From the NCBI RefSeq assembly GCF_027214005.1, contig NZ_JAPWGY010000001.1:124001-188000 (forward strand): DNA of 64,000 bases, written 5' to 3'. This document shows positions 10,372-31,461 of this stretch, piece by piece; positions within the stretch are counted from its first letter, which is position 1; every line of letters begins with the position of its first letter. The notes beneath the pieces are model-generated. The model was given only the letters and a program-made list of their open reading frames with translations, made no database searches and was not told the DNA's origin. This DNA comes from Kiloniella laminariae. Lineage in GTDB: Bacteria; Pseudomonadota; Alphaproteobacteria; Kiloniellales; Kiloniellaceae. The translations under genes were made by a program, and so were the position numbers.

Positions 10372-11799
10372 TTAAAAATATTCGACCGAGTTGAGTGTCG
10401 GTGTGGTGAGGATCGCCCCCAGTTTGCTGAGAGCGATCACCAGGGTTTCTGTTTTTCTTGGCGCCATAATTGATAGTCTGATGTGCTGGTTTCCACTGCC
10501 TGTGCGGCTGGAGAAACGCTGTCCGGATGTCACAAGAACCCCGGCGAGTTCGGCCTGTTTGACAAAAAGGTCTACATTGCAGCTGTCGGGGAGTTTGAGC
10601 CAGGCGTGTGAACGGCAAAATTTGAGTGAGACCACCTTGTCTGCCAGTTCTGCCCGGGTCAGCTTCTCTCTTTCATCTGCCTGGACGAGAGAGGCATCAA
10701 TCATTTTTTGTAAGCTGTCGTGGCGCAAAGCCAGTTCAGATGCCGCGACAGCGAGAACCGGGGATACCATCCAGCTTTGGGCTGTGATGCCCTGGGCCAT
10801 CAGCATGGTGATCTGGGGGGAAGCCACGGAAACGCCGATACGCAGAGAAGGTGTCAGGCGTTTGGCCAGACCTGTCAGATAAATTGCATTGTCCGGAAAC
10901 AGAGCGGCATAGGGAGGAGGAGCGTCGGGGTAAAGAAATCCATAGATGTCATCTTCGATGACAAGCACATCGTATTTTTTTGCGATCTCGCCAATCTGTA
11001 ATCGGCGTTCGAGCGGCGTGGTGATGCAGGTCGGATTATGTCCGGTGGGTGTCGTCACCAGCAATCGCAAGCGCCCGGCCTGACAGAGCCTTTCAAAATC
11101 GACGGGGTCTATTCCCCGGTCATCACATTCAACTATGACGCTGGAGAGACCGGCCTGACTGAGCGCGGCTGAAACACCCGGATAACACAAGGGTTCCAGG
11201 CAAATGGTGTCCCCCGGTGATGTCAGGCGATTCAGGGCGGTAAAAATTCCGTTCTGGGCACCGTGATTAATCAGCAGTCGTTCTTCACCGACCTGCTGCA
11301 GGCATGCGGGAAGAAAAGCACGCATCGCCAGTTTTTGCGCGGCAGTTCCATAGCCATCGCGATAGGTCATAAGGGTCAGGGAAGAAGCTTTGTCTGCGGT
11401 GCGTCGCAGGGCCCAACGCAGCAGATCTTCACCTTCTTCGTTGGTAATGGCATTCATGGCAAGGTCAATAACCCCGATATCAGCCAGATTACTATCGCTT
11501 TTGCGAGAGGAGGACGGGCGGGGCAGGATGATATCGGCGCCGATGCTGGCCTCTTCGCGAACAAAAGTACCGCGACCGACTTCCGCGGTGACCATGCCTC
11601 TACGCTCAAGTGCTGCGTATACACGGGACATGGTCCCCAGACTGCAGCCTGCTTGCCAGGCAGCATCCCGCAGGGGAGGAAGCTTTTCCCCGGGTTGCAG
11701 TGTTCCTTCGCGGATGGCCTGGCGAAAGAGACTTTCCAGCTGGCTATATTTCTGTCCCGTGGCGGGAGCACGGGATTTTATGAGAGAAAGAATTGTCAT
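10372..11799 (-). CDS. MocR-type GntR/aminotransferase transcriptional regulator
   Basis: A 475-residue fusion of a GntR winged helix (residues about 8-80: YSQLESLFRQAIREGTLQPG, LGTMSRVYAALERRGMVT) and a fold-type I aminotransferase domain. The aminotransferase part shows NHGAQNGIFTALNRL, the IEDDIYGFLYPD segment with the PLP-ring aspartate, and the Schiff-base lysine in YLTGLAKRLTPSLRIG. MocR proteins sense PLP or amino compounds rather than catalyse. It is divergent from the LysE-family exporter, whose gene it most likely controls. I prefer the ATG at 11799, which leaves palindromic operators outside the coding region; a TTG at 11835 would place them inside. There is no clear ribosome-binding site before 11799, so the mRNA may be leaderless. 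Confidence 0.92.
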   Translation of the reverse strand: MTILSLIKSRAPATGQKYSQLESLFRQAIREGTLQPGEKLPPLRDAAWQAGCSLGTMSRVYAALERRGMVTAEVGRGTFVREEASIGADIILPRPSSSRKSDSNLADIGVIDLAMNAITNEEGEDLLRWALRRTADKASSLTLMTYRDGYGTAAQKLAMRAFLPACLQQVGEERLLINHGAQNGIFTALNRLTSPGDTICLEPLCYPGVSAALSQAGLSSVIVECDDRGIDPVDFERLCQAGRLRLLVTTPTGHNPTCITTPLERRLQIGEIAKKYDVLVIEDDIYGFLYPDAPPPYAALFPDNAIYLTGLAKRLTPSLRIGVSVASPQITMLMAQGITAQSWMVSPVLAVAASELALRHDSLQKMIDASLVQADEREKLTRAELADKVVSLKFCRSHAWLKLPDSCNVDLFVKQAELAGVLVTSGQRFSSRTGSGNQHIRLSIMAPRKTETLVIALSKLGAILTTPTLNSVEYF

Positions 11800-11801
11800 A
11801 G

Positions 11802-11830
11802 GAACAATATAAATATTGTTCAATGAACAA
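11802..11830. promoter_or_regulatory. Nested palindromic operator between mocR-type and lysE-type genes
   Basis: Two overlapping perfect palindromes share one arm: GAACAATAT-AA-ATATTGTTC (11802-11821) and TTGTTC-AAT-GAACAA (11816-11830). Three GAACAA/TTGTTC half-sites therefore follow one another just upstream of the MocR-type start and 85 bp upstream of the LysE-family start. This is what a MocR operator controlling a divergent pair would look like. Confidence 0.7.
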
Positions 11831-11915
11831 TGCAAGCGGATATATAAGGGGATCCGGGGGCAGAAATATCCTGAAGTGCTCCGGACGTTAAGTAACTCTG
11901 GCGGAATTTAGAATC

Positions 11916-12533
11916 ATGCTTTCAGAAAACATTATACCTGCGTGGATCTTTGCTGTCGTGATGTCAGGAACACCGGGACCCGCAAACATGATTCTGATGG
12001 CAACAGGCGCAGCTTTGGGATTTCGCCGGGCATTGCCTTTTACCTGTGGTGTTTTTATCGGGTTTACAGTGGTGCTTGCTGTTGCGGGGTTTGGCATCAC
12101 TGCACTGCTGGATGGTTTCCCGGCCCTGGGGCCAGTGATAACTGTGGGAAGCAGCTGTTACCTTTTGTATCTGGCCTGGAAAATCGCCCGTATTGATCTG
12201 AAAAAGACGTCGGGGGATGTGGCGGCAAAGACTGTCGGATTGGTCAATGGCCTGATTGTTCACCCAATGAACCCAAAAGCCTGGTTGATGGCAACAACCG
12301 TTTTTGCCCAGTTTTCAGACCACTCCAGGCCAGCCTGGGAACAGTGGCTGGTCATGAGTGTGATTTTCTTCTTTGGCGGTTTTCCAACCAACTGTATCTG
12401 GACCTGGGGTGGAGATCGTCTGATATCCTCTATCCAGAGTCCGGGGCGGCGGCTTGCTGTAAATTTGTTTCTGGCAATATCCACGGTCGCAATTGTTGCC
12501 TATATGGCCTTTAACCAGTTTGTCGTGGTGTAA
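11916..12533 (+). CDS. LysE/RhtB-family amino-acid exporter
   Basis: A 205-residue inner-membrane protein with about six helices. The family signature is present near the N-terminus: SGTPGPANMILMATGAALGF, followed by the conserved GFTVVLAVAGFG helix and the mid-protein NGLIVHPMNPKAWLM motif. LysE/RhtB proteins export amino acids or their analogues; the substrate cannot be read. It is divergent from the MocR-type regulator, and that pairing suggests export of an amino compound sensed through PLP chemistry. Confidence 0.92.
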   Translation: MLSENIIPAWIFAVVMSGTPGPANMILMATGAALGFRRALPFTCGVFIGFTVVLAVAGFGITALLDGFPALGPVITVGSSCYLLYLAWKIARIDLKKTSGDVAAKTVGLVNGLIVHPMNPKAWLMATTVFAQFSDHSRPAWEQWLVMSVIFFFGGFPTNCIWTWGGDRLISSIQSPGRRLAVNLFLAISTVAIVAYMAFNQFVVV

Positions 12534-12582
12534 AACCGAAACAAAAACCGACCTGATCGGCGTTCTTTTAAGATCTGGTCAG

Positions 12583-12608
12583 AAAAAAACGAGAGAGGAA
12601 ATCCTCTC
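12583..12608 (-). terminator. Minus-strand rho-independent terminator without an upstream protein gene
   Basis: The 6-bp stem GAGAGG/CCTCTC with an ATTT loop is followed on the minus strand by GTTTTTTT (A-run at 12583-12589 on the plus strand). In the plus direction there is no T-run, so it does not serve the LysE-family gene well. Confidence 0.65.
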
Positions 12609-12760
12609 CCGTACAGTAGGGTCGATAGAGCTTCTCTGGTCACAAAGTTGGCGATGACCAGATCGCGAAAACCTCCGGTTTTTTCCCCATTCAGCGTAGA
12701 AGCCAGTCAGGGCCGAAGATACCTCATGTTCCGAAACAAAAGACAGTTGGCTGACTTTCG
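12583..12760 (-). ncRNA. Candidate small RNA on the minus strand
   Basis: The 3' end is defined by a hairpin GAGAGG-ATTT-CCTCTC followed by G and seven T. Upstream on the same strand there are AAAACC-GGA-GGTTTT and TGGTCA...TGACCA stem-loops but no open frame. The 5' end is a guess. I do not recognise a known family (it does not clearly read as 6S, SRP or a named alphaproteobacterial sRNA). Support is structural only. Confidence 0.35.
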
Positions 12761-12834
12761 CCCGATACAGGATTGAAAGAAGACTAGGGCGAGGTCAGGA
12801 AGCGGGCAATAATCCGTTGTCGTACAGCGCAATA

Positions 12835-12883
12835 TTTGTAAATATATTTATCAATCGAAAAACATATTTGTGAATGTTGTAAA
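12835..12883 (+). promoter_or_regulatory. TTTGTAAA-type half-sites before the ScfR-like regulator
   Basis: TTTGTAAA (12835-12842), TTTGTGAA (12867-12874) and GTTGTAAA (12876-12883) lie just upstream of the ATG at 12888. RamB/ScfR/MccR regulators are known to bind TTTGCAAA-like palindromes, so these may be autoregulatory sites. The spacing is about 32 bp between the first two. Identified by eye. Confidence 0.4.
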
Positions 12884-12887
12884 AGAT

Positions 12888-14408
12888 ATGGCGCGTCAGA
12901 TATTCGCAGGGCGGAAAATCCGCCACCTCCGGGCACAGTTGGGCCTGACCCAGGTGGCAATGGCAGGGCAGCTGGATATTTCAGCGGCCTATCTCAATCT
13001 AGTTGAGCATAACCAGAGACCTCTTTCAAGAAAGCTGCAGAAAAAACTCGAGAGTGTCTTGCCAGTCAAAGAGGGGGAGCTCTCTGGTGGGGAGGAAGCA
13101 AGAATGCTTTCGGCCCTGGAAGAACTTTTTTCGGATCCCCTTTTCGATCGCAACCGTCCTGGTGGGGCAACCCTCGGTGACTTTGTTGCGGTTCACCCCG
13201 AGATTTGCCGGGCGGTGCTCAAACTGTACCGGGCATTTCGCAATGCGCGTGAGGATCGCCTCAAGGCCCGGGAAAGCCTCTCTGCGGACCCGTATTTTGC
13301 GGATACCAGTCACAAGCTGTTGACCCAGTTGACGTCCATACGGTCCTTTGCCGAAATACTTCAGGATAACGACGATCTTTCTGATCATCAGCGCGGACGT
13401 TTTACAGATGTTCTGGTGGATGAAAGTAAAAAGCTTACCTTGATGGTTGGAGAATTGTTTGATTTTATCAATGGAGAGTCTCTGGAATCATCCAGCCTGA
13501 GTGAAACCCCCACGGATGAAGTGGTGGATATGCTTTCGGTTAATGACCACTATTTTCCCGAGCTGGAAGACGCGGCTGAACAGTTGCGGGAAAGAATAGG
13601 CAATCCCCAACCCTACGGACTTTTTGATGCCTTGGTCCACTATCTGGATGAACAGCTGGGAATATCTGTCGAGATTGTTCCGGTGACAACGCAACCCTCG
13701 CTAAAAAAAGGCATGTGGGAGCTGGAAGGAGAGGACGGTGGTGTACTTCGCCTGATGGAGACACTCTCGGTCAGTTCTCTGGTCTTCCGCCTTGCCCGGG
13801 TCGTTGCCGAAGTTGCCTATGCTGACGTTTTGGAAAAAACGCTGGCGCGCGGACATGTGAGCAGCGACGAGGCGCGGCGGCTCTGCCTGAAAGCACTGGG
13901 GAGTTATTTTGCCGGAGCCTTGATGATGCCATATGCGGCTTTTCGTCAGGCCGCACTTGAATTGCGCCATGATATTGATCTGTTGCGGCGGCGTTTTCGG
14001 GTCGGTTTTGAGCAGGTTTGCCACCGCCTGACCACCTTGCAAAAACCGCAGGAGGAAGGGGTGCCATTCCACTTTGTCCGGGTTGATCTTGCCGGACAGA
14101 TTTCCAAACGCTTTAGTGCCTCAGGATTAAGAATCCCGCGCTATGGTGTGCTGCCTGCGCAATGGGGGGTTCAGGATGCCTTCCTTAAACCGGGAAGAAT
14201 CAGTACCCATTCTATGCGGGCGGAAGACATGGCCATATATTTTTCGATCACCCGCACAGTTACAAAACCAGGTACCATGGTGGGGCAAGCAGGAAACACC
14301 TTTGCTGTCAGCCTGGGGTGTGAGGTATCCTTCGCGCGCCATATGGTTTATGCCGATGGCCTGGATTTCACGCATCCTGACAGTGTACTGCCCCCGGTAA
14401 AAAAATAA
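12888..14408 (+). CDS. XRE-HTH / DHp-like / IrrE-like / ScfR regulator
   Basis: 506 residues from the ATG at 12888; the family usually begins with this M-A-R-x-I-F-A-G peptide, so the GTG six codons earlier is less likely. Residues 6-58 are an XRE helix-turn-helix (LGLTQVAMAGQLDISAAYLN). About 135-195 (TSHKLLTQLTSIRSFAEILQ, then RFTDVLVDESKKLTLMVGEL) reads as a histidine-kinase dimerisation/phosphoacceptor domain with the histidine at 142. About 240-385 resembles the IrrE/DUF955 region but lacks HExxH. The C-terminus (DLAGQISKRFSASGLRIPRY, SLGCEVSFARHMVYADGL) is the ScfRs/DUF2083 domain of short-chain-acyl regulators such as RamB and MccR. It precedes a receiver protein and a sensor kinase. 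The DHp-like insert is unusual. Confidence 0.88.
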   Translation: MARQIFAGRKIRHLRAQLGLTQVAMAGQLDISAAYLNLVEHNQRPLSRKLQKKLESVLPVKEGELSGGEEARMLSALEELFSDPLFDRNRPGGATLGDFVAVHPEICRAVLKLYRAFRNAREDRLKARESLSADPYFADTSHKLLTQLTSIRSFAEILQDNDDLSDHQRGRFTDVLVDESKKLTLMVGELFDFINGESLESSSLSETPTDEVVDMLSVNDHYFPELEDAAEQLRERIGNPQPYGLFDALVHYLDEQLGISVEIVPVTTQPSLKKGMWELEGEDGGVLRLMETLSVSSLVFRLARVVAEVAYADVLEKTLARGHVSSDEARRLCLKALGSYFAGALMMPYAAFRQAALELRHDIDLLRRRFRVGFEQVCHRLTTLQKPQEEGVPFHFVRVDLAGQISKRFSASGLRIPRYGVLPAQWGVQDAFLKPGRISTHSMRAEDMAIYFSITRTVTKPGTMVGQAGNTFAVSLGCEVSFARHMVYADGLDFTHPDSVLPPVKK

Positions 14409-14476
14409 ATTGCAGGCCATACACCAAGCCCGGCGGTGATGGGGAAACTGATCGTTTTTCCGGGATTATTCCAATA

Positions 14477-14519
14477 TTGGCAAAGATAATGTTGCCAAGG
14501 TGAAATCACGCCTTGGCAA
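14477..14519. promoter_or_regulatory. TTGGCAA inverted and direct repeats before the receiver gene
   Basis: TTGGCAA at 14477-14483 forms an inverted repeat with TTGCCAA at 14492-14498, and a third copy, TTGGCAA, follows at 14513-14519, 36 bp after the first. They lie 78-120 bp before the receiver start, in the 190-bp gap after the ScfR-like gene, so they may be an operator for the downstream signalling genes, possibly for the ScfR-like protein itself. Confidence 0.4.
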
Positions 14520-14596
14520 AAGGCTGGGGCTAACGTTAATCTTGCGGGAACAGGGAAAATAAACAGAGAAAACCGGATTGCGGAGAAAGGCAGAAA

Positions 14597-14980
14597 ATGC
14601 CTCAAACGGTTCTCGTAGTTGAAGACGAGCCCCATATTGTCGATTCACTCAGCTTTTTGATGAAGAAGGCCGGTTTCGACGTCTTTATTGCACGCGACGG
14701 TGATGCCGCCTTGCGGATGGTGGAAAGCTGTCCGCCCGATCTGATGCTGCTGGATATTATGTTGCCACGGCGGGATGGCTTTGATGTTTTGAAATCGGTC
14801 CGGTCCAATCCGGCGTGGCGGGATATACGGGTCATCCTTTTGACGGCCAAAGGCCGTGACGTGGATCGTTTAAAGGGGATGGAACTCGGCGCTGACGATT
14901 TTGTAACCAAACCTTTTTCGACCAAGGAAGTTGTCCGGCTGGTTCGACAACATCTGGGTGTTGAAGAAAAAACGGCATAA
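14597..14980 (+). CDS. Single-domain response regulator (REC only)
   Basis: A 127-residue CheY-like receiver with no output domain. The acidic pair Glu9-Asp10 (VVEDEP), phosphoacceptor Asp53 (LLDIMLPRRDG), switch Thr83 (LLTAKG) and Lys105 (VTKPFS) are all present, so it should be phosphorylatable. It is predicted cytosolic. The start has GGAGAAAGGC upstream. It sits between a transcription factor with a DHp-like segment and an SLC5-type sensor kinase; the kinase lacks its own receiver, so this protein is its likely partner, and might in turn dock on the DHp-like part of the regulator. Confidence 0.94.
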   Translation: MPQTVLVVEDEPHIVDSLSFLMKKAGFDVFIARDGDAALRMVESCPPDLMLLDIMLPRRDGFDVLKSVRSNPAWRDIRVILLTAKGRDVDRLKGMELGADDFVTKPFSTKEVVRLVRQHLGVEEKTA

Positions 14981-15108
14981 GAAAACAAACATATTTTGAC
15001 GTTGCGTTAAAGTCTGCCTCCTGCCGTCTCGCTTGAGAAAAAGCGGGTACCTGACTTGTCTGTTTTCTGGTGTTTGCTTAACCTTGCTGCTTCAATCGGG
15101 GAAGAAAC

Positions 15109-15567
15109 ATGAGACGTCCGGGTGAGAAAGCTGATCGGAGTATCGCGCTTTTCCTTTTGGCCGTTTTATTATTTAGCCCTCTGGTCCTGTCAATTTTTAG
15201 TCAGGAAACTCTGTTCCTGGGTCTGCCCCCTCTTTTTGCCTACCTTTTTGCGGCCTGGGGAGCTGTTATTCTTGCTGTAGGCTGGTCGTCCTGGCGCGAA
15301 CAGGCGGATATGTCACAGGATCCTCTCTTGTCAGGGGGGGCAATCCCCGGGTTGGGTAATCTGGATGGAGACAAAGCACCGTTTGATCCCGAAAATGGCC
15401 TTCCATCCGGTGTGGAGCCGAGGGAAACAGGTTATCCTGAGCCAGATATCTCCTTGCCGTCTTCGCAGCAGACGATGAGTGAAGAAGCCAAGATTGGCGA
15501 TAAAGGGGGCTCTCTTCCCAAAGAGCAAGATCTTTCGAAAGAAGCAGGAGCCAAGGATGCTGGTTGA
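15109..15567 (+). CDS. Small two-helix membrane protein with acidic tail, symporter small-subunit-like
   Basis: 152 residues. Two hydrophobic segments (about residues 12-30, IALFLLAVLLFSPLVLSI, and 37-62, LPPLFAYLFAAWGAVILAVG) are followed by a roughly 90-residue acidic, disordered-looking tail rich in Pro, Glu, Asp and Ser. The hydrophobic part resembles the small partner subunits of sodium/solute symporters (DUF3311/YhdT-like). Its end overlaps the start of the SLC5 sensor kinase by 11 bp, so the two are made together; it is probably a subunit of that transporter-like sensor. Exact family uncertain. Confidence 0.7.
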   Translation: MRRPGEKADRSIALFLLAVLLFSPLVLSIFSQETLFLGLPPLFAYLFAAWGAVILAVGWSSWREQADMSQDPLLSGGAIPGLGNLDGDKAPFDPENGLPSGVEPRETGYPEPDISLPSSQQTMSEEAKIGDKGGSLPKEQDLSKEAGAKDAG

Positions 15568-18313
15568 CTGGTTTATTGTCCTGGCATCGATTGGCTATCT
15601 GTTGGTCCTTTTTGCCGTTGCCTATATTGCAGACAAACGGGCGGAACGGGGGGCGGGGATAACATCGCACCCTTATATCTATGCCCTGTCTCTAGGGGTC
15701 TATTGTACGTCCTGGACCTTCTATGGTTCGGTTGGACGGGCGGCGTCTAGCGGACTGGATTTCCTGCCGATCTATATTGGTCCGACGCTGGTTTTTATTC
15801 TCTGGTGGCTGGTGATCCGAAAAATCATCCGCATTACCAAGGCGCATCGTATTACCTCGATTGCCGATTTTATTTCGTCGCGCTACGGCAAAAGTTCGCG
15901 GATGAGCATTCTTGTTACAGTGATCGCTGTCGTCGGGATCGTTCCCTATATTTCCCTGCAGCTGAAAGCCGTTGCCACCAGCTTTAATGTGCTCAAGCAA
16001 TATCCTGAGGTGATTGCCCCCAGTTATTCACCGCCGATTGCAACTGTGGCTGATACGGCTTTCTGGGTTGCGTTGGTCATGGCGCTTTTTGCAATCCTTT
16101 TTGGGACCCGTACGGTCGATAACAGCGAACATCACGAAGGGGTCGTGGTGGCGATTGCCTTTGAATCCGTGGTCAAGTTGCTGGCTTTCCTAGCGGTGGG
16201 CATTTTTGTCACCTATGGACTTTACGATGGCTTGGGTGACCTTTTTGCCAAGGCCTCTGCCTATCCCGAACTGGTCAAGTTAATGACCTTCGAGCAGGAG
16301 GGGGCCTATACCACCTGGATAACCCTGACCACGTTGTCTATGGTCGCCGCAATCTGTTTGCCACGACAGTTTCAGGTGATGGCGGTCGAAAACGTCAACG
16401 AACCGGAACTGCGCAAGGGGGCCTGGCTTTTCCCACTCTATCTGTTGGCGATCAATATTTTTGTTCTGCCCATCGCTCTTGGGGGGCTGCTGCAGTTCCC
16501 GGATGGGGCCGTCAATGCCGATACCTTTGTCTTGACCCTGCCAATGGCGCACCATCAGGAATGGCTGGCTCTTTTTGTGTTTCTCGGTGGCTTGTCCGCA
16601 GCGACGGGCATGGTGATCGTGGCGACCATTGCCCTGAGTACAATGGTGAGTAACGATCTGGTTATGCCGGCGCTGTTGCAGTTGAAGTGGTTGGGGTTGA
16701 CAGAAAGAGGCGATTTTACCGGCATAGTGCTCTTTGTCCGGCGCAGCAGCATTCTTTTGATTCTGTTTCTGGGATATGCCTATTTCCGCTTTCTGGGCGA
16801 AAGTGATGCTCTGGTCACGATTGGCCTGATTTCCTTCGCAGCCGTTTTCCAGTTTGCGCCAGCCATGCTTGGTGGCATGTTCTGGAAGGGAGGCAACCGG
16901 TCAGGTGCGTTGACGGGGCTATTCCTGGGGTTCATCGTCTGGGCCTATACGCTCTTGCTTCCGTCTTTTGCCAAGTCTGGAATATTACCCCTTTCCTTTA
17001 TTACGGAAGGACCGTTGGGTATTGAACTGCTCAAGCCCTATGCCCTGTTTGACCTGCAAGGTCTTGATAACCTCACTCATGCCCTGTTCTGGACGACGGT
17101 AATAAATGTTGGTGCCTATGTTTTTGTTTCGCTTTACAGCAGACATTCAGCGCTGGAACGGGTGCAAGGTGCGCTTTTCGTTGATGTTTTTCGCTACGCA
17201 GATCAGGGGCCGCGGTCTCAAATCTGGCAGGGATCTGCGCTGGTGGAAGATCTGTTCAATCTCCTGGTCCGGTTTATCGGGCGGGCCCGGGCTGACCGGG
17301 CATTCAGCAATTATTTTCGGGACCGGGGGTTGGAACGCCGCCGGGTGACCACTGCGGATGCCGATCTGGTCAACTTTACCGAACGGCTGATGGCCGGAGC
17401 CATCGGAACAGCTTCGGCCAGGGTAATGATTTCCTCTGTCGTCAAGGGCGAGGCTGTCCGGATTGAAGAGGTGATGAAGATCCTTGAGGAGACTTCCCAG
17501 GTTATCGAATACAGCCAAAGTCTTGAGCAAAAGTCTTTCGAGCTGGAAAGTACTACCCGACAGTTGCGGGCAGCGAATGAAAGGCTCAAGGAGCTAGATC
17601 GTCTGAAGGATGAGTTTCTTTCGACAGTTAGCCATGAGCTGCGCACCCCCTTGACCTCTATTCGTTCTTTCAGCGAGATCCTGAGTGATCACCCGGATCT
17701 CGATGAAGCCGAGAAAAGCAGATTTCTCAGAATTATTGTCAAAGAGAGTGTTCGCCTGACCCGTTTGATCAACCAGGTGCTGGATCTGGCCAAGATAGAG
17801 GCCGGGCAAATGGAGTGGGTGGTTGAGAAGCTGGATGTGGCCAGAGTCATCGAGAATTCCATGGAGGCCATGAGTGCCCTGTTATCCGAGCGGACGATAC
17901 AATTGGAGAAAGATATCTGGGCCAATTTGCCAGCGGTAAAGGGAGACCGAGATCGCCTGATGCAGGTAATTGTCAATCTGCTCTCCAATGCAGTGAAATT
18001 TTGCGATCCGGACAAGGGGCGGGTCAAGGTTTCGGTCCGCAGATCAGGACCTGAACTCGTGGTTTTGGTCTCGGATAACGGCCGGGGCATCCCCTGGATT
18101 TCCAGGGAAAAAATATTTGAAAAATTCCATCAAAGCCGGGAAGGTTTAACAGATAAACCCCATGGAACCGGGTTGGGTCTGAGCATTTCACGACAGATCG
18201 TCGAGTATTTTGGTGGACGTCTTGAGCTGGTTGAATCAAGCAACAAGGGATCCGTCTTTGGCGTTTTCCTTCCGGTGGAAGAAGGGAAAGACCAAATCCA
18301 GGTTGGCGAGTGA
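15557..18313 (+). CDS. SLC5-STAC sensor histidine kinase (CbrA/CrbS-like)
   Basis: 918 residues from the ATG at 15557, which has AGGAG close upstream. Residues 1 to about 520 are a sodium/solute symporter (SLC5) domain with about 13 helices. About 531-625 (ALFVDVFRYADQ to ARVMISSVV) matches the STAC linker domain. A coiled coil (about 640-690) leads to HisKA with His693 (SHELRTPLTSIRSF) and a HATPase domain with N-box NLLSNAVKF near 805, DNGRGI near 840 and GTGLGLS near 870. Unlike many CbrA/CrbS proteins it has no PAS domain and no receiver. Such kinases sense a transported substrate (histidine in CbrA, acetate in CrbS). The partner is probably the adjacent receiver protein. Confidence 0.92.
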   Translation: MLVDWFIVLASIGYLLVLFAVAYIADKRAERGAGITSHPYIYALSLGVYCTSWTFYGSVGRAASSGLDFLPIYIGPTLVFILWWLVIRKIIRITKAHRITSIADFISSRYGKSSRMSILVTVIAVVGIVPYISLQLKAVATSFNVLKQYPEVIAPSYSPPIATVADTAFWVALVMALFAILFGTRTVDNSEHHEGVVVAIAFESVVKLLAFLAVGIFVTYGLYDGLGDLFAKASAYPELVKLMTFEQEGAYTTWITLTTLSMVAAICLPRQFQVMAVENVNEPELRKGAWLFPLYLLAINIFVLPIALGGLLQFPDGAVNADTFVLTLPMAHHQEWLALFVFLGGLSAATGMVIVATIALSTMVSNDLVMPALLQLKWLGLTERGDFTGIVLFVRRSSILLILFLGYAYFRFLGESDALVTIGLISFAAVFQFAPAMLGGMFWKGGNRSGALTGLFLGFIVWAYTLLLPSFAKSGILPLSFITEGPLGIELLKPYALFDLQGLDNLTHALFWTTVINVGAYVFVSLYSRHSALERVQGALFVDVFRYADQGPRSQIWQGSALVEDLFNLLVRFIGRARADRAFSNYFRDRGLERRRVTTADADLVNFTERLMAGAIGTASARVMISSVVKGEAVRIEEVMKILEETSQVIEYSQSLEQKSFELESTTRQLRAANERLKELDRLKDEFLSTVSHELRTPLTSIRSFSEILSDHPDLDEAEKSRFLRIIVKESVRLTRLINQVLDLAKIEAGQMEWVVEKLDVARVIENSMEAMSALLSERTIQLEKDIWANLPAVKGDRDRLMQVIVNLLSNAVKFCDPDKGRVKVSVRRSGPELVVLVSDNGRGIPWISREKIFEKFHQSREGLTDKPHGTGLGLSISRQIVEYFGGRLELVESSNKGSVFGVFLPVEEGKDQIQVGE

Positions 18314-18447
18314 GGGGGATGATGTTTTGAGCCGGAGAGATCTAGAGGGGTGGATGCGCGATAAGATTGCACCTGTTGGGCTGATGGGGTAAAACCGCTC
18401 CAGTGCAGTGATCTGCAAAAGAGATAACACTTTTTCTGGAGCGCCGA

Positions 18448-20124
18448 ATGGCATCATATCAGTATATCTATCAGATGGACGGGGTCTCGAAGACCTTTCC
18501 TGGCGGTAAACAGGTTCTGAAAAATATCCGTTTGAACTTCCTGCCCGGTGCCAAGATTGGTGTGTTGGGTCTGAACGGTTCCGGTAAATCGACTTTGATG
18601 AAAGTCATGGCAGGGCTTGATACCGAAATCAACGGTGAAGCCCGTGCAGCCGACGGTGTAAAAGTCGGTTATCTGTCGCAGGAACCTGCGCTTGATGCTT
18701 CAAAGACTGTTGCCGGTAACGTCTTTGAGGGCGTTGCCGAAACCAAGGCTCTGTTGGAAAAATTCGAGGAAATCAGCGCACGTTTTGCTGAAGTTGATCC
18801 TGATGAAATGGACGCCCTGATTGAAGAGCAGGGGGAACTGCAGGAAAAGATCGACTCGCTGGATGCCTGGGATCTGGATCGTCAGGTTGAGATCGCCATG
18901 GATGCATTGCGCTGTCCTCCGGGAGACGCTGATGTGACCAAGCTTTCCGGTGGGGAGCGTCGCCGTGTCGCACTCTGTCGCCTGCTGCTTTCCAGCCCCG
19001 ACATGTTGTTGCTCGATGAGCCGACCAACCATCTTGATGCCGAATCAGTTGCCTGGCTTGAGCGTTTTCTTGAAGAATACAGAGGGACTGTGGTCTGTGT
19101 AACTCATGACCGCTATTTCCTCGATAATGTCGCAGGCTGGATCCTGGAGCTGGATCGTGGTGAAGGTATCCCTTACGAGGGGAACTACTCCAGCTGGCTG
19201 GAACAGAAACACAAACGTCTGGCACTGGAAGAAAAACAGGAAAGCGCCAAACAGAAATTTCTTAAGGACGAGCTCCAGTGGGTTCGTCAGGGAGCCAAGG
19301 CGCGTCAGACAAAATCCAAGGCGCGTTTGCAGGCTTATGAAAATCTGGTTCAGGAAGAGAGCCAGCGGGCACCGGATCCTGGCCGTATTGTTATTCCACC
19401 TGCTCCACGTCTTGGCGATCTGGTTATTGAAGCAACCAATATTGGTAAAGCTTTCGGAGACCGTTTGCTGGTTGAAGATCTCAGTTTCAAGATTCCCAAA
19501 GGTGCGATCGTTGGAATTATCGGGCCTAACGGTGCTGGCAAGACCACACTCTTCCGGATGATCACCGGGCAGGAAAAACCAGATAGTGGTACCCTGAATG
19601 TTGGGGATACCGTAGAAATCGGGTATGTCGACCAGAGCCGTGACGCCCTGGCTGCAGACAAGACCGTCTGGGAAGAAATCGCGGATGGTCTGGATATTAT
19701 CGAGATTGGCAAACACACCTATCAATCTCGGTCCTATGTTGGTGCCTTTAACTTCAAGGGCGGAGATCAACAGAAAAAAGTTGGTCAGCTGTCTGGGGGG
19801 GAACGTAACCGTGTTCACCTTGCGAAGATGTTGCGCAAGAGTGCGAACGTTATTCTGCTCGATGAGCCGACCAACGATCTTGATGTTGATACTTTGCGGT
19901 CTCTTGAAGAGGCTATTCTTGAATACAGTGGCTGTGTCCTGGTGACATCGCATGACCGTTGGTTCCTTGACCGTATCGCGACCCATATTCTTGCCTTTGA
20001 AGGCGATAGTCAGGTTGTCTGGTTCGAGGGGAACTACGAGGATTACGAAGCTGACAGAAAGCGTCGCCTGGGGGCTGCTGCTGATCAGCCGCACAGGATC
20101 AAGTACAAACCTTTGAAACGCTAA
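18448..20124 (+). CDS. ettA: Energy-dependent translational throttle protein EttA
   Basis: A 558-residue ABC-F ATPase with two nucleotide-binding domains and no membrane segment. Walker A motifs are GLNGSGKST and GPNGAGKTT; signature plus Walker B are [14 protein letters not shown]...[11 protein letters not shown] and [15 protein letters not shown]...[10 protein letters not shown]. The charged linker with the [20 protein letters not shown] helices is the tRNA-interacting arm. Length and linker match EttA, which binds the ribosomal E site and gates the first elongation step according to ADP/ATP. It is monocistronic, ending in a strong terminator. Confidence 0.96.
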
Positions 20125-31186: not shown

Positions 31187-31461
31187 CGATCTGACTCCTA
31201 AATTTGATTTCGCGGCCCGGCTAAGTGTAAGATCACTCAGGTGTTAAACACTCGCCGCCGTGTTGTTGACATCATATCTAGCTCATTTTGTTGTTTTCGC
31301 TAGCGGTGATTCTGCACTTCAGCCATGCATTTTGTGAATATTTGTGAATAAGTATTTGATATTGTTTTTTATTTAGCCATGTCAAAGCTTGTGTTGCCCC
31401 CAGCTGAAAGCTCGGATAATCTTCGAAAAACAACATTGTATATTGTATAAAGGAACTCAAA

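Follow-up and report, generated by a model that had tools for sequence, protein, structure and literature searches.

How does a transporter-like histidine kinase reach transcription when the receiver protein encoded beside it has no DNA-binding output of its own? The question is raised by a locus of Kiloniella laminariae that lies within the 64,000-nucleotide stretch analysed here (hereafter the window, whose first letter is position 1). As the original prediction had it, four genes stand in a row on one strand, and all four are open on the + strand: a transcription regulator with HTH, DHp and M78/ScfR parts (12888..14408, ATG start), a stand-alone receiver of 127 aa (14597..14980; phospho-acceptor D53 at 14753-14755), a small two-helix membrane protein resembling CbrX (15109..15567), and an SLC5-STAC-DHp-CA histidine kinase without PAS (15557..18313; H693 at 17633-17635). 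The predicted 11-bp overlap of the last two genes is at 15557-15567. The regulator frame has a second in-frame start, GTG at 12870; the start at 12888 is preferred because operator boxes overlap this GTG, from which the residue numbers of the regulator (P0001) are nevertheless counted. Pfam assigned HTH_3, HisKA (29.8 bits, cut-off 26.9), Peptidase_M78 and ScfRs to the regulator, which agrees with the ScfR type proposed for it. Response_reg was the sole family above cut-off in the receiver, and no family reached its cut-off in the small protein. For the kinase, Pfam returned HisKA and HATPase_c; neither a PAS nor a receiver domain was found, and no SSS or STAC model appeared in the result. A search of Rfam at the gathering threshold gave no match in 11800-18600. 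Upstream, at 10372-11835 on the - strand, lies a MocR-like regulator (GntR-type HTH plus an aminotransferase-like part, judged from the ORF only), and an EttA-like ABC-F gene at 18448-20124 adjoins the four genes downstream. The latter is near the module in 10 of 62 loci examined, either beside it, in the Kiloniella-type loci L040, L041 and L119, or close to the kinase cluster, in L120, L125, L159, L161, L165, L166 and L174.

The sensor end of the locus is closest to the CbrA transceptor of Pseudomonas, whose cryo-EM structure (PDB 10ED) matches the N-terminal part of the kinase (10ed_A, E 5e-75). The STAC segment gave no match when searched as a single sequence; a profile of 15 module kinases (A5) aligned to residues 7-590 of the 606 in 10ED (E 1e-110), the STAC region included. 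These alignments support the presence of putative SLC5 and STAC domains between the N-terminus and the kinase core and are consistent with the predicted transporter-like kinase free of PAS and receiver. According to the available text of a preprint (PMC13022988), the Na2 site of CbrA is filled by a lysine, K196; this corresponds to K207 of the window kinase (16175-16177), which is kept in 53/53 aligned kinases. The available parts of PMC6591292 and PMC13022988 describe CbrX as a short peptide of two helices; its gene overlaps cbrA, and the peptide co-purifies with CbrA. The small protein of the window has the position of CbrX, a similar gene overlap and two hydrophobic stretches, from which the two helices of the original prediction are read, and its P40 and W50 are invariant in 27 aligned relatives. 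(For this alignment, A1, 27 of the small ORFs were used; L119, L128, L131, L133, L143, L159, L163, L164, L179 and L181, among others, were left out.) Its profile matched 10ed_X with an E of 5.2, not significant and the second of two matches listed; kinship to CbrX by sequence is at most hinted at. The same sources state that CbrA production depended on translation of cbrX and not on the identity or sequence of the peptide, and that CbrX was dispensable for growth on histidine; by analogy, these findings would count against the module reading set out below.

The receiver was expected to hold all phosphorylation residues, and D10, D53, T/S83 and K105 are kept in 41/41 aligned rows, row L129 being probably an unrelated receiver. 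A possible promoter of the receiver, small-protein and kinase genes is found at 14513..14540 on the + strand (TTGGCA, 16 bp, GTTAAT); its CTTGGCAAA is present in 7/7 aligned Kiloniella-type sequences, and the promoter scan does not list this candidate. An inverted repeat at about 14491-14519 was rejected, one of its arms not being kept in relatives.

Between the HTH and M78-like parts of the regulator lies a DHp domain of the HisKA family (13296..13466, + strand; residues 143-199), with its phospho-acceptor histidine, H148, present at 13311-13313. The domain is a helical hairpin in the predicted structure, and no ATPase domain follows it by Pfam. Of the 30 HisKA sites compared with it, among the 60 in the same genome, the one in the neighbouring kinase came out best, at 42% identity (E 2e-14; next best 4e-6), and positions H+7 to H+12 read TSIRSF in both window proteins. 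That the regulator carries a near-copy of the kinase DHp suggests how the receiver may reach it. Genome-specific co-variation of the two domains was considered and rejected, since identity over H+1 to H+20 was 0.42 to the own kinase and 0.40 to other module kinases, a point against the module reading set out below. The copy departs from its model at defined positions. Module kinases are uniform in 42/42 paired rows, with E at H+1, R at H+3, T at H+4 and P at H+5. The regulators never have P at H+5 and have E at H+1 in only 7/42 and R at H+3 in only 2/42. Their H+4 is T, S or N in 41/42 rows, and R at H+10 (37/42), S at H+11 (40/42) and I at H+15 (42/42) are also largely kept. As HisKA motifs are read, such a DHp could take up a phosphoryl group or assist in removing one, and could not start the kinase reaction.

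The original prediction staked itself on the neighbours being conserved together, and so we found them. By protein search, a regulator built of HTH, kinase-type DHp and ScfR occurs in at least 45 of 385 genomes of the class and the PAS-less short kinase in 53/385; both are present in 44 of the at least 45 DHp-ScfR genomes, nine more genomes have the kinase only, and neither was found in 331/385. The sole DHp-ScfR genome in which no short kinase was found (G064) is 68% complete. We counted against the module the nine of 53 short-kinase genomes in which no DHp-ScfR was found; because the regulator search scored at most three candidates per genome and its counts are those among the matches listed, absence here means "not found" only. 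Five DHp-ScfR regulators were found only beside the kinase, and search depth was therefore unequal; without these five, co-occurrence is 39/40. The short-kinase set was hand-picked by open-frame length (about 890-1041 aa), with G370 (frame 1153) added for its neighbours; G331 was counted as DHp-ScfR from its aligned segment, though BLAST saw the HTH only, and G074/L148 was dropped, having no DHp by BLAST.

Gene order was read in 60 fetched genome stretches, with G064, a fragment, left out of the scoring. Regulator, receiver, small gene and kinase usually follow one another in this order; the kinase part is convergent or elsewhere in some genomes, and the kinase and regulator genes were not found within 3 kb of each other in 11/44. 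Nearly every kinase locus fetched also has a receiver gene, with none found in locus L157 of G080. Many families of the Alphaproteobacteria have the module, one example outside Kiloniella being a plasmid of Neorhizobium sp. SOG26. Among the matches listed for a 398-genome sample of the phylum, at least 31 genomes have matches over the DHp, all of them of the class, and eight non-class genomes match from query position 207 on, that is, over the non-DHp part only. On a tree of the ScfR part (99 rows, 25 Microvirga-range rows having been thinned), 2 changes account for the DHp label, vs 33 after shuffling; a single DHp-ScfR origin appears in 4% of bootstrap trees, is not contradicted by the starred branches and is to be read with long branches present.

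We therefore turn to what the four genes may do together. Our answer, which we hold to be moderately likely, is that they form one short-chain-carboxylate sensing module in which the signal passes from kinase to receiver, from receiver to DHp-ScfR regulator and from there to operator boxes, and which probably governs how short-chain acids, acetate and propionate among them, are used. By analogy with CbrA, the SLC5-STAC domain, perhaps with the CbrX-like subunit, would bind a short carboxylate and set kinase or phosphatase activity, and the kinase would phosphorylate the stand-alone receiver on D53, as its conserved residues suggest. The receiver would then recognise the DHp of the regulator, because that DHp copies the helix by which receivers recognise kinases; such docking would fit both the sequence copy and the co-occurrence with the kinase. 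On docking, H148 would take the phosphoryl group or help remove it, altering DNA binding, and the regulator would act at TTTGTAAA boxes found at its own promoter and at transport and CoA-ligase genes, the putative targets being, in most relatives, the ABC or SSS transporter gene that diverges from it and, in Kiloniella, a propionate-CoA ligase. The ScfR domain of the regulator may add an acyl-CoA signal. A narrower version, to which we give only tentative credence and which we think doubtful, is a His-Asp-His phosphorelay ending on a histidine of the DNA-binding regulator, its phosphoryl group coming from a free receiver and being added to the acyl-CoA signal of the ScfR domain.

The fate of the histidine bears on both versions. 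Histidine occupies the H148 position in 37 of the 44 genomes typed and is replaced by F in four, Y in one and Q in two, and because of these 7/44 replacements phosphotransfer cannot be general. The seven histidine-less genomes fall in three families, and suggest that docking alone can suffice there. All 33 compact modules have the histidine, vs 4/11 dispersed ones (Fisher p 9e-6; rows not independent), compact meaning kinase and regulator genes within 3 kb, a limit chosen by hand after the distances were seen, with the window's own gene distances entered by hand. Retention in the compact modules suggests that chemistry takes place in them, either transfer to the histidine or phosphate removal. 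The replacements would suit an alternative in which the DHp is a dimerisation module only, the regulator answers acyl-CoA alone as do PrpR and RamB, and regulator and kinase share a locus because they serve one nutrient. The M78-like/ScfR core of the regulator does match PrpR, a structure comparison included, and PrpR and RamB bind acyl-CoA (available text of PMC6765138 and PMC10370305). Such a role, however, needs neither the histidine nor T/S/N at H+4, and is disfavoured by the presence of the histidine throughout the compact modules and by the retention of H+4 while H+1, H+3 and H+5 drift, as well as by the co-occurrence with the kinase. We consider it unlikely, and a dimer-only or vestigial DHp is ranked below the module reading.

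The boxes on which the proposed module would act lie immediately upstream of the regulator gene, on the + strand: an exact copy of the upstream motif, TTTGTAAA, at 12835..12842, TTTGTGAA at 12867..12874, 32 bp from the first, and a third, GTTGTAAA, with one mismatch at 12876..12883. Across 51 regions upstream of the regulator (related genomes and G074 included), TTTGTAAA occurs in 44 exact copies in 33 regions, vs 0.7 in shuffles, and pairs at 31/32-bp spacing occur 21 times vs 0.06. The genome has no exact two-box site other than the pair at 12835/12867. We infer that the boxes are operators bound by the regulator. With up to two mismatches, two-box sites were no commoner in the own genome than in a reversed control (13, namely the exact site of the module and 12 others, vs 16), and these were rejected as a set; one weaker site, not significant by itself, was pursued because its neighbour is a propionate-CoA-ligase-like gene, and was then checked in the genus. 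The best model for this gene is propionate--CoA ligase, at a score below the cut-off of that model. It is present in 8/9 Kiloniella genomes, and an exact box precedes 7 of the 8 copies, the eighth having two one-mismatch boxes. No exact box was found in the nine Kiloniella acs promoters (0/9), which we counted against the module; six of the nine have a one-mismatch site, TTTCCAAA. A further pattern, TTTGYRAA-N0-3-TTGTRAA, had two sites in the own genome vs one in the reversed-pattern control and was taken as chance. One of the two, TTTGTGAATATTTGTGAA at 31331-31348, lies ahead of an aminopeptidase P-like gene.

Gene neighbourhood adds to the connection with short-chain acids. In 42 of the 43 loci scored the regulator gene stands beside a divergent transporter gene, Kiloniella being the exception; within 1.5 kb the divergent partner encodes a Liv/Urt-like ABC substrate-binding protein in 39/43 and an SSS symporter in 3/43. 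The absence of any transporter adjoining the module in Kiloniella loci was counted against our reading. The SSS symporter holds the divergent place of the ABC transporter in L120, L124, L125 and L047 (the last outside the 43-locus set), at 77-81% identity to that of L124; no symporter of the L124 kind was found in the own genome among three candidates scored. An acetate-CoA ligase lies within 9.5 kb in 4/43 loci and also beside the receiver, small-protein and kinase genes of G211 (L176). Support for the tie to short-chain acids expected of an ScfR-type regulator comes from its ScfR domain, from the transporter genes divergent to it, from the few operons with Acs and from the boxes before the propionate-CoA ligase genes. 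All features of the ScfR family (Pfam PF09856), namely HTH, M78-like and ScfRs, are present in the regulator, the sole ScfR-type protein found in its genome among 22 candidates. The C-X2-C-X4-C [4Fe4S] motif is absent from it and from eight Kiloniella-clade rows (L040-L046, L119), and is kept at the C-terminus of 42/43 other DHp rows, read by eye, with L158 as the exception. This motif defines the iron-sulfur ScfRs, IsaR (PMC6765138, available text), and because it is missing the window protein was not filed with them.

These boxes bear on another reading, in which the regulator's DHp serves the receiver as phosphatase or sink, the regulator feeds the metabolic state back on the kinase pathway, and the output lies elsewhere. 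A histidine with T/S/N at H+4 and without the acid at H+1 is the pattern of phosphatase-type DHp domains, and the regulators match it: the histidine and H+4 are kept and the H+1 acid is mostly lost. The four-gene module nevertheless has no other DNA-binding response regulator, and both the operator boxes and the linked transporter genes speak for the ScfR protein being the output. We give this reading slightly less credit than the dimer-only one. Least probable is that the regulator DHp pairs directly with that of the kinase, the regulator being held at the membrane and the receiver only tuning, as the 42% identity and common TSIRSF stretch would allow but the two genes not found within 3 kb in 11/44 genomes, and the receiver gene beside the kinase in nearly all fetched loci (none found in L157/G080), speak against.

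If receivers of this kind dock on kinase-like domains as the module reading proposes, other partners might show the same device. In three of the nine short-kinase genomes in which no DHp-ScfR was found (L159, L163 and L164), a protein to which Pfam assigns a DnaQ-type exonuclease domain adjoins the receiver, and such a protein also stands beside the receiver on plasmid 1 of Paracoccus denitrificans (L180) and in Cupriavidus necator C39 (L181). PAS is present in those of L163, L164 and L180 among the five proteins run, and the exonuclease protein of L167 looks alike by eye. Before the exonuclease domain is a stretch weakly like the kinase DHp (19-43 bits, BLAST), without the histidine. This putative second effector is in keeping with kinase-like docking domains being a feature of the proteins that such receivers work with. 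The original prediction, with the SLC5 domain setting kinase activity, the receiver carrying the phosphoryl group and the ScfR-like protein as the final output, is partly supported. It named the DHp of the regulator, yet made no use of its closeness to the kinase DHp, of the likeness to CbrX or of this second effector.

Comparison with described systems indicates that the parts are known. CbrXA/CbrB of Pseudomonas shares with the window an SLC5-STAC histidine kinase, a short two-helix partner and a gene overlap (17 bp for CbrX, 11 bp here), but CbrA has a PAS domain and a partner, CbrB, of receiver-AAA-HTH build, in place of the receiver-only protein and ScfR regulator (PMC13022988, PMC6591292, available parts). 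CrbS/CrbR and RpuS/RpuR, which control acs or the pyruvate permease gene mctP, likewise have SLC5-STAC kinases; theirs, however, are hybrid kinases with PAS and receiver and act with LuxR-type response regulators, neither of which the module has (PMC9100948, PMC5715377, available parts). PrpR, RamB and PccR resemble the window regulator in their HTH, M78-like and ScfR parts and serve short-chain acyl-CoA metabolism, but the available text of PMC6765138 and PMC10370305 names no DHp in them. The boxes differ as well: PrpR recognises TTTGCAAA and RamB TTTGC(A/G)AA (PMC6765138, available text), whereas the window box is TTTGTAAA. In Paracoccus denitrificans, the gene of Pden_1785, a protein of the ScfR network, lies in a cluster with a two-component system; the cluster is possibly the same module, known here from its mention in PMC10370305, the available text of which names no DHp.

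For a DHp that listens to a receiver there are precedents. The phosphotransferases Spo0B and ChpT are DHp-type bundles that receive from or read a response regulator, and DivL, from what the accessible literature says of it, is like the regulator DHp in this respect. To our knowledge, none of the three sits in a DNA-binding regulator that also has a domain of the acyl-CoA type. Among open-licence papers, as far as their available text goes, no described system combining a DHp-ScfR regulator, a free receiver and an SLC5-STAC kinase was found, and the pairing of a regulator bearing a kinase-mimicking DHp with a free receiver is new as far as the literature searched shows. There are many stand-alone receivers without a known output, and for this one a candidate can be put forward in the form of a kinase-imitating regulator. 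The module is perhaps also present in the model organism Paracoccus denitrificans, provided that Pden_1785 corresponds to the regulator gene. If our reading is true, a kinase domain would have been reused as a docking site, and a single protein would be where a transporter-like membrane sensor meets a cytoplasmic sensor of the acyl-CoA type.
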